A stretch of DNA of 40,931 nt from an uncultured Bacteroidia bacterium. Its GTDB lineage: Bacteria > Bacteroidota > Bacteroidia > J057 > CALLMJ01. Each line of letters opens with the position of its first letter. The first letter of the stretch is position 1. This document shows positions 28,119-30,801 of this stretch, piece after piece. The stretch covers positions 1 to 40,931 of the forward strand of contig CALLNY010000010.1 of NCBI GenBank assembly GCA_938005475.1. The letters run 5' to 3'. The position numbers were made by a program, and so were the translations under genes. The notes beneath the pieces were generated by a model. It was not told the DNA's origin, did not search any database, and saw nothing but the letters and a program-made list of their open reading frames with translations.

Positions 28119-28682
28119 TTATTTTACACGTTCAACGTATGTTTTTGTCCTCGTATCTACCTTAATAATTTCATCATTATCTATGAATAATGGCACCTTG
28201 ACTTCTGCACCTGTTTCAAGTTTAGCAGGCTTCATAGCGTTTGTAGCAGTATCTCCTTTTATACCAGGCTCCGTATAAACCACCTTCATAACCACGAAAA
28301 TAGGAATATCCACCGTTAGAATCTTGTCCGTATCGCTATCTATGACAACATCTACCATTTCATTTTCCTTCAAAAATTCTACTCCATCAATTTTGTCTCT
28401 TGGTATGGATATTTGGTCAAAAGTTTCTGGATGGATAAATACCAAATCATTACCATCAGGATAGGAATACTGATATTTCGTTCGAGTTAAATTTACAATT
28501 TCAATTTTTGTACCTGAAGGAAACGTATTATCAATCACTTTTCCTGATGTTAAACTTTTTAACTTAGTTCTCACAAAAGCTGCTCCTTTCCCAGGCTTTA
28601 CATGTTGAAACTCAACCACTGTATAAACATCATTATTAAAACGAATCGCTAAACCGTTTTTGATATCAGATGTATCTGCCAT
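28119..28682 (-). CDS. efp: Elongation factor P
   Basis: The 187-residue factor has the three-domain EF-P order: N-terminal KOW-like domain with the ribosome-tip loop [14 protein letters not shown], an OB domain with [19 protein letters not shown], and a C-terminal OB domain with [22 protein letters not shown]. It relieves ribosome stalling at proline runs. The tip residue is Lys32 in PGKG, the position that is modified in many bacteria. The modification enzyme, if any, is not in the window. It heads the efp-accB-accC operon; no full-consensus promoter was found upstream. Confidence 0.96.
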
Positions 28683-28766
28683 ATATAATTAAAGCGCAAT
28701 TTTAAACATAAAAATTGATTTATAAAAATCATTTTTTATTTTTATTTTTAAGTCTCTAAAACAATT

Positions 28767-28774
28767 TATCTTTG
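28767..28774 (+). promoter_or_regulatory. -7 box TATCTTTG
   Basis: An exact TAnnTTTG match 11 bases before the ATG at 28786. No TTG at the usual -33 spacing; the upstream region is AT-only. Confidence 0.45.
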
Positions 28775-28785
28775 CAAAAACATTT

Positions 28786-28989
28786 ATGCGTATCCTTAAT
28801 CCACTTTATGATTGGGCTTTTAAGTACTTGATGGATAACAATGAAATAGCAAAGAAATTTTTAAGTATACTACTCAAAAAGAACGTTATCCATCTTGAAA
28901 ATGCGAAATATTTGAAGTCTTTAAATATTGAGATAGAAATTATTGCAAAGACAACGGGTTTATCTGAATCGGAAATAGAAAAATTATGA
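28786..28989 (+). pseudogene. Internally deleted Rpn/PD-(D/E)XK nuclease-transposase family gene
   Basis: The 67-residue frame joins two ends of a protein family normally about 250-320 residues long. Residues 1-40 (NPLYDWAFKYLMDNNEIAKK, then FLSILLKKNVIHLE) resemble the N-terminus of the PDDEXK_2/Rpn family. Residues 48-67 (LNIEIEIIAKTTGLSESEIE, Lys-Leu) match the typical C-terminal helix ending in TGLSxxEIEKL. The whole nuclease core between is absent, so catalytic activity is not expected. It keeps a start, a stop and a -7 box, so a small protein could still be made. The alternative is that it is an unrelated small gene with chance similarity; that seems less likely because both ends match in the right order. 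Confidence 0.6.
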
Positions 28990-29067
28990 ACGACTAAAAC
29001 TTAAAGCACATAACTTTCTTATTTTTAATAATAACACAAAATTTACCTTTATTTATATCAAAAACGT

Positions 29068-29075
29068 TATATTTG
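29068..29075 (+). promoter_or_regulatory. -7 box TATATTTG
   Basis: An exact TAnnTTTG match 10 bases before the ATG at 29086. The -33 element is not visible. Confidence 0.45.
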
Positions 29076-29085
29076 CCAATTTCTT

Positions 29086-30801
29086 ATGAACGCAAGAAAT
29101 CTTATCTTTTGGGTTATAAATTACATAAGTTTTGGATGTTTAGTAGGACAAGATGCTGATTTGCCTCAAAATCATTTCATTGAGTATTTTATGGATAGAA
29201 TGGACATAATGGGTAAGTTTGAAAATACATTTCAATCCTCTTTAAAACCTTTACCAAGAGAATATATTGCTTGTTATATAACTCAAATAGACTCTAACGA
29301 ACTGTCCTACAAAGATTTACATACCTATTTCAGAGCACGTTATGTTGTAGATGATGATTTTAATGATTCCTTACGTTGTATACCAGAATTTAATGTTGGA
29401 TTTAGAAAATATTTTAGTGGATTGTATCAAAATCGTAGGGATTTAGTTAGTTATTGTACAGAGAATTTTAAGGTGTATATAAATCCTATTTTAGAATTAC
29501 GGTTAGGGCGAGAGGGGAGTAATCGCCCGAATAGTATTCCTAGTATATATCAAAATACTCGCGGAGCTAATTTCAGGGTTCGTTTAGGGAAAAAATTAGG
29601 GTTTTATTCCGAGTTTATGGAAAATCAAATTCGTTTTCCTTCTTTTGTTCGTTTTATCGATTCTACTTCTGTTTTGAGAGGCGGTATATTCCCGGGAGTA
29701 GGATACTGGAAACCTTTCAAAGAAAATGGAGTAGATTTTGGTTTAACAAAAGCCTATTTAACCTATTCTCCCCTTTCTCAATTACGTATAAAAATGGGTA
29801 GAGACCGCAACTTTCTTGGAAATGGTATACAAAGCTTATTTTTAAGCAATTTTGCGGTTGATTATTGGTTTACTAGTTTTCGTTTAGACCTCAAAAAAAT
29901 TCATTATTACTGGCAGGTCTCTCAAATGGTGGACTATATTCCCTATAAATCGGATGCTTATGGAAGACAACCTGCAAAGTACGCTGTCCACCATCAACTT
30001 TTTTGGAATCCACGAAAGAATTTGTCTTTCAGTGTTTTGGAATCGGTCATTTATGCCTCTGCTTCACCTAATCAGAGTAGAGAATTTGAATTACAATATT
30101 TGAATCCTTTAATTTTTTATCGTACCGTTGAACAGCTTATTGGGTCTGCGGATAACTCTTTACTTGGAATTTCTTTTAAATGGAACTTTCTCAAGTCGTT
30201 ACAAGTCTACGGGCAATTAGTTATTGATGATTATAATTTTGGAAATCGTAAAATAGGGAAAGGTTGGTGGGGCAATAAAACGGGTATCCAAGCAGGGATC
30301 AAATATCTTAACGTAGCTACTATTGACCAATTAGACTTGCAACTTGAGTTTAATCAGGTTTCCCCTTACACTTACGGACATACTAACCCCGCTTCAAATT
30401 ACAGCCATTACGGGCAATTTTTAGCGTTTACTTATGGAGCTAACGCAAGAGAAATTACCGCTAAATTATGTTATCAACCTCTCCCAAGGCTCTATGTAGT
30501 CCTACAAGGCATTTACGCTCAAAAGGGTATGGATAAAAACGGGCTCCATTACGGAGGTAATATTTTTAGGACGGGGAACGTTCATTTTCAGGACTACAAT
30601 AATCAAATTTTACAAGGTAGATTATTAGATTTAAAGGTAGGGCATGCTCGTTTTTCGTATCAATTATTTTATACGGATATTTTTTTGGAGTTAGACGCAT
30701 GGTATAGAATACAAAACCTTGAAAATACCAACTCTATTAGGGAATGGGTTATTTTAGGAGGTTTAAGACTAGGAGGATTCAAAAGTTTATGGCATTTTTA
30801 A
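29086..30801 (+). CDS. RemB/Wzi-like outer-membrane protein
   Basis: The 571-residue protein has a signal-like N-terminus (hydrophobic residues 6-21) and a long region of alternating beta strands ending in aromatic/polar residues, as in an outer-membrane barrel. Recognisable stretches include TKAYLTYSPLSQLRIKMGRDRNFLGNG, the YLNPLIFYRTVEQ segment, DDYNFGNRKIGKGWWGNKTG, and SPYTYGHTNPASNYSHYGQ. These fit the capsule-assembly Wzi fold family, which in gliding Bacteroidota includes the RemB motility/surface protein. A role in surface polysaccharide attachment or gliding is possible, but not proven. Its last 13 bases overlap the ATG-initiated tsaD. Confidence 0.7.
   Translation: MNARNLIFWVINYISFGCLVGQDADLPQNHFIEYFMDRMDIMGKFENTFQSSLKPLPREYIACYITQIDSNELSYKDLHTYFRARYVVDDDFNDSLRCIPEFNVGFRKYFSGLYQNRRDLVSYCTENFKVYINPILELRLGREGSNRPNSIPSIYQNTRGANFRVRLGKKLGFYSEFMENQIRFPSFVRFIDSTSVLRGGIFPGVGYWKPFKENGVDFGLTKAYLTYSPLSQLRIKMGRDRNFLGNGIQSLFLSNFAVDYWFTSFRLDLKKIHYYWQVSQMVDYIPYKSDAYGRQPAKYAVHHQLFWNPRKNLSFSVLESVIYASASPNQSREFELQYLNPLIFYRTVEQLIGSADNSLLGISFKWNFLKSLQVYGQLVIDDYNFGNRKIGKGWWGNKTGIQAGIKYLNVATIDQLDLQLEFNQVSPYTYGHTNPASNYSHYGQFLAFTYGANAREITAKLCYQPLPRLYVVLQGIYAQKGMDKNGLHYGGNIFRTGNVHFQDYNNQILQGRLLDLKVGHARFSYQLFYTDIFLELDAWYRIQNLENTNSIREWVILGGLRLGGFKSLWHF

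Follow-up and report, generated by a model that had tools for sequence, protein, structure and literature searches.

The window, meaning the whole 40,931-nucleotide stretch of DNA that was analysed, is contig C10 of genome G000 (2.63 Mb, 105 contigs). Translation of its open reading frames combined with a search of its own genome identified a 67-residue frame (protein P0001) at 28786-28989 on the + strand, which is probably chimeric. The open frame had been predicted at this position, and it runs from an ATG to a TGA; the reverse strand of 28786-28989 has stops in the frame that was translated. The frame is flanked by the divergently oriented efp gene, whose product has EF-P domains in Pfam, and by a Wzi-like gene (PF14052) on the same strand as the frame.

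The 20 bp immediately 5' of the ATG (28766-28785, + strand) form a leader that is identical, by DNA comparison, to that of C87, an rpn copy of subfamily A. The leader contains the box TATCTTTG at 28767-28774, upstream of the 67-residue frame, which fits the Bacteroidetes -7 promoter form TAnnTTTG. A -7 box with intact start and stop codons had been predicted, and each is present. Beyond the stop codon, 28990-29020 (+ strand) has patchy similarity to copies of a second subfamily, B, with values of 0.76 to C23 (+16 to +32) and 0.73 to C79 (+1 to +15).

Parentage of the two ends and the junction

A search of G000 with the 67-residue protein generated 26 matches, the window included. Residues 1-39 were 100% identical to C87 (E 3.9e-21) and residues 1-41 were 95% identical to C15 and C36, while residues 33-67 matched three other copies at 69-74% (best E 7.9e-10). 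At the DNA level, residues 1-39 are encoded by 116 bases (28786-28901, + strand) that are identical to the start of C87. With the 20 upstream bases, identity to C87 is unbroken over 136 bases (28766-28901). The C-terminal tip, AKYLKSLNIEIEIIAKTTGLSESEIEKL, is encoded by 28902-28989 (+ strand) and resembles the tails of subfamily B. It matched C93 and C103 at 77/88 bases, C23 at 75/88, C19 and G001:C44 at 74/88 and the truncated copy C79 at 69/88. The A-type tail of C47 shared 57/88 bases with it, and C33 shared 53/88. The closest B copy is therefore 87.5% identical, and among the copies compared neither an exact donor nor an exact repeat of this part was found. Here G001 is a genome of the same genus as the window genome, and G059 one of the same class.

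Subfamilies A and B were assembled by comparison of partial copies. No complete A gene was seen in G000, and no complete B gene was seen within one contig. In subfamily A the sequence continues as HLENRNIELPL (C15, C36, C47) or, in G059, as HLESRNIEMPL. The full-length subfamily A protein is G059:C145 (315 aa), whose C-terminus is unlike that of the 67-residue frame; A-type C-termini that could be read (C47, G059:C145, G059:C149) have a tail like KLLKELNMPIQEIINRTGLSEREIQNL. The N-terminus of subfamily B, MLIANPIYDAVFKYLMQ, differs from that of A. Its link to the B tail was made with G001:C150 (N-terminus and middle) and with G001:C173 and G000:C103 (middle and C-terminus); the two G001 genes are incomplete.

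The original prediction had derived the frame from one Rpn-family gene by internal deletion, and had proposed alignment to homologues in the same genome as a check. Paralogue matches at both the N- and C-terminus bear out the Rpn-like ancestry of the two ends, which are joined in frame as claimed. The single parent gene is not borne out, since the ends derive from paralogue subfamilies A and B.

At the junction C87 reads CTTGAAAACC, C93 reads CTTGAAACTGCG and the window reads CTTGAAAATGCG. The three share the microhomology CTTGAAA (28894-28900, + strand), and judging from the aligned bases the A-to-B switch is within or just after it. A shared run of at least 7 bases occurred at 0.10-0.16% of position pairs when random A/B breakpoints were taken between C15 and four B copies. 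The shared run depends on the donor: it is 7 bases with C93 and G001:C44 and just GAAA with C23, C103 and C19, so the 7-base microhomology holds only for a C93-like or G001:C44-like donor.

Two AT words, AAATATTTGA and AAATATTGA, had been proposed as deletion scars near the junction. They occur at the positions given for them, and both lie 3' of the junction (28894-28902) in normal B-type sequence; as scars they were rejected.

Family assignment and the missing nuclease core

The parent family was compared with the Rpn group (recombination-promoting nuclease, YhgA-like; TIGR01784, PF12784 PDDEXK_2, COG5464). TIGR01784 matched 4/13 parent-family members at E <= 0.01 (best 1.9e-10), and a direct search with Pfam PDDEXK_2 matched 0/13. 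When 10 parent-family sequences were aligned by hhalign to four PDDEXK_2 proteins, all of which match PF12784, the probability was 97.2 with E 4.6e-11 over 279 columns, and both the IEIQ segment and the C-terminal TGLSxxEI segment were aligned. The parents thus align with Rpn proteins over most of their length and are homologous to PDDEXK_2 / TIGR01784 proteins. On these results they are best regarded as a diverged branch within the Rpn/PDDEXK_2 group.

The full-length A protein of G059 was modelled from 13 sequences (pLDDT 79). Its N-terminal part has helices at 9-17 and 19-30 and a strand at 33-40, followed by strands with D58 and E76/K79. Its C-terminal part has a long helix (226-293) and short helices at 298-305 and 309-314. 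When the alignment was mapped on this model, the 67-residue frame proved to retain helices 9-17 and 19-30 and strand 33-40, which correspond to its A-derived residues 1-39, together with the tip of the long helix and both short helices at the end. D58 and E76-x-Q78-K79 are conserved in the family alignments and fall in the part that the frame lacks. We take D58, E76, Q78 and K79 to be catalytic, as in PD-(D/E)XK enzymes. The prediction that the nuclease core is missing was correct, and the frame, unlike the Rpn family, is without the entire core; it does not have the catalytic residues of a functional Rpn / PDDEXK_2 nuclease.

P0001 matched TIGR01784 at E 4.7e-6, best over residues 37-67, but its 26.6 bits are below the curated cut-off of 52.1; an A-type parent scored 24.9 against the same cut-off. 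The sole Pfam match of P0001, RNA12 (E 0.021), was unrelated and sub-threshold. P0001 had no match in a PDB sequence search, and the family alignment had only weak matches there, in its C-terminal half (best E 0.01). Foldseek with the full-length A model found no PDB match at E <= 0.001, which, like the low number of direct profile matches, counts against the homology of the parents to PDDEXK_2 proteins. A single-sequence model of the 67-residue frame predicted five short helices, at low confidence (pLDDT 68.5).

The Rpn family is multi-copy (PMC10327210), and so is the parent family here. Apart from the window, 24 copies were found in G000 with the window protein, two of the 25 other matches belonging to one gene, C33. 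Two copies are full-length inside a contig (C33, 299 aa, and C35, 315 aa), five are broken inside a contig (C36, C71, C8, C85, C79), and 17 run off a contig end. With 17/24 copies at contig ends, the family is apparently among the causes of breaks in the assembly of G000. A TIGR01784 search found further places outside the 24-copy count, among them C16 and C2, both with internal stops, C35:9-755, C82 and C83. In another rpn subfamily, C71 (L019, from 1267 on) has a 135-nt internal deletion relative to C8 (L020). The missing segment begins at nt 114 of the gene, near where the window has its junction (nt 116), and the comparable 140 nt downstream of it are identical in the two copies. Tandem rpn genes were seen in the congener, where an A start in G001:C35 lies 13 nt past the stop of an A-type C-terminus.

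Origin of the frame

Our preferred reading, to which we give a probability of roughly 0.8, is that the 67-residue frame is a young A/B chimera formed by microhomology recombination of two rpn genes and is probably non-functional. A break or template switch would have placed the final 28 codons of a B-like gene directly after codon 39 of an A gene. The event could have been a deletion in a tandem array, between an A and a B gene lying side by side, or ectopic recombination of copies lying far apart. RecA-independent joining, as reported for Rpn nucleases, is a plausible route. Kingston et al. (PMC5350276) report that overexpression of 4/5 E. coli Rpn proteins raised RecA-independent recombination, and the A/B join at a microhomology fits that report. 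They also discuss template switching and microhomology-mediated assembly, and suggest Rpn cleavage as a possible feed for them. Zhong et al. (PMC10327210) describe rpn arrays and found no evidence of autonomous transposition. A chimeric Rpn gene was not found within the part of the literature that was surveyed.

The fusion looks recent, judged from an A part without differences from C87. Since that part is identical, the C-part most likely had its differences of about 12% before the fusion took place, and they say little about the chimera. The product, if translated, would be a short, nuclease-dead, mostly helical peptide, and is probably non-functional. The intact frame and -7 box make translation possible, which counts against the non-functional reading. 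The assembly is fragmented at these very genes, and given the 136-base exact repeat the left flank could be mis-linked.

A match over residues 1-67 was found in the window's own genome only: 0/99 and 0/246 other genomes had one, in two overlapping sets. In the 246-genome set 24/38 candidates were scored in G001 and 24/36 in G059; in the 99-genome set all candidates of these two genomes were scored. Likewise, none of the at least 11 loci listed in a seed-limited contig scan matched residues 1-67, and no relatives of P0001 were found in the viral contigs, plasmids and phages searched. Widespread homologues of the same 67-residue length, the pattern named in the original prediction as the mark of a normal small gene, were thus not seen in these genomes. 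Taken alone, the frame is an unremarkable remnant from a nuclease family with many copies. What it does show, resolved to the base, is where two Rpn-like subfamilies join at a short microhomology.

The alternative that comes nearest to the original prediction among those compatible with the data, although we consider it unlikely, is an internal deletion in one pre-existing mosaic Rpn gene with an A-like N-terminus and a B-like C-terminus. The 135-nt deletion that distinguishes C71 from C8 indicates that a deletion at nearly the same position is possible in the family, and mosaic paralogues are conceivable because Rpn C-termini are described as variable by Zhong et al. (PMC10327210). Against this, none of the loci examined combines an A N-terminus or middle with a B C-terminus, and the three A-type genes with a readable C-terminus (C47, G059:C145, G059:C149) all end in an A-type tail.

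Less probable still, in our opinion, is that the frame is a retained decoy or antitoxin, a short RpnS-like protein that would be expressed from the A promoter and would bind and inhibit the full-length B-type nuclease. The in-frame join and the kept -7 box are compatible with such a role, and G000 also contains fragments that would fit longer A and B genes. According to Zhong et al. (PMC10327210), RpnS is a C-terminal product that inhibits RpnL; the published examples consist of three helices from the C-terminus, and rpnS also occurs as a separate gene. Like these intragenic antitoxins, the 67-residue frame closes with the helical C-terminal portion of an Rpn protein, and its model has five predicted short helices, albeit from one sequence and with a pLDDT of only 68.5. 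RpnS, however, starts with a long helix that holds a variable number of four-residue repeats, on which its specificity is reported to depend (PMC10327210). In the frame that place is taken by residues 1-39 of a different Rpn protein. Of the RpnS arrangement, a long repeat-bearing first helix followed by C-terminal helices, the frame keeps only the tip of the long helix ahead of the last helices, whereas B copies carry RAEEEKK-type repeats. The loss of the repeat helix, which tunes antitoxin specificity, argues against an RpnS-type role and leaves that role weakly supported. The absence of a whole-frame match in the other genomes searched and the presence of at least five other plainly broken copies also argue against retention. 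In a published account, a separate rpnS gene can be lost through fusion of rpn pieces, among other ways. The likeness to our frame is the fusion itself; that account, in the sections considered, describes neither loss of the nuclease core nor a join of two subfamilies.

An assembly artefact joining two repeat copies is equally improbable: the family appears to break the assembly at 17/24 other copies and the N-part repeats 136 bases of C87 exactly, but at the junction the parents have no more than 7 bases in common, in our judgement not enough for a mistaken overlap, and among the copies compared the C-part is not exactly repeated (best 77/88).

Edges of the rpn copies and gene neighbourhood

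Ten B copies were compared at their 5' edges, six from G000 (L089, L026, L027, L028, L113, L121) and four from G001 (L109, L112, L116, L147), giving 45 pairs. Coding identity was 88-100% over the first 110 nt. Upstream identity, calculated without a shuffled control, was 75-100% at -1 to -16, 38-100% at -17 to -24 and 19-58% at -25 to -60. For the window and C87 the same four intervals gave 100%, 100%, 75% and 28%. Among nine A-type copies (36 pairs), identity above 70% at -1 to -16 was found only for the window with C87 and for C36 with G001:C35 (88%). C15 and C36 ran contrary to a sharp edge, with 64% at -25 to -60 and 44% at -1 to -16. The 3' edges were compared in eight copies; G001:C173 carries three additional residues and is out of register. 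Similarity was lost within 15-32 bases of the stop codon in most pairs, although at +33 to +80 the window still had 50% identity to C93 and 48% to C79.

The B copies thus have common sequence mainly from the -7 box (about -20) to just beyond the stop codon. Such edges could mean that a minimal mobile unit was copied recently, or that coding regions underwent gene conversion within old unrelated flanks. A wider and rather doubtful proposal is that rpn genes spread across the genus as minimal cassettes, from the -7 box to past the stop, which would enter unrelated intergenic sites by RecA-independent, microhomology-primed template switching, perhaps started by the nuclease. The window frame would then be a mis-switch between two cassettes, and its promoter-bearing short form possibly an RpnS-like regulator. 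In the genomes of Zhong et al. (PMC10327210), the rpn-bearing region is reported to have variable ends. The narrow unit common to B copies makes rpn mobility testable in the genus.

The adjacency of efp and the Wzi-like gene (28119-30801) is not common to the congener G001, in which efp adjoins an MgsA/RarA-type ATPase gene and the Wzi-like gene adjoins a glycosyltransferase. Homologues of these two partners are on other contigs in G000, so the adjacency differs between the congeners. One idea is that the chimera marks a rearrangement junction at which two chromosomal loci were fused, efp to the left and the Wzi-like gene to the right. Within the stretches compared, only small blocks are common to G000 and G001, and the more distant genomes G002, G006 and G010 did not polarise the direction of the change. 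The adjacency therefore counts neither for nor against a fusion of loci.

C79 at 694-2407 (L097) and G001:C44 (L079) are 100% identical over 1714 bp, although efp and the Wzi-like gene have 94% and 80% protein identity, respectively, between the same two genomes. Such identity points to recent transfer or to an error in binning. The rpn C-terminus in C79 adjoins a reverse-strand frame with a haem-NO-binding match.
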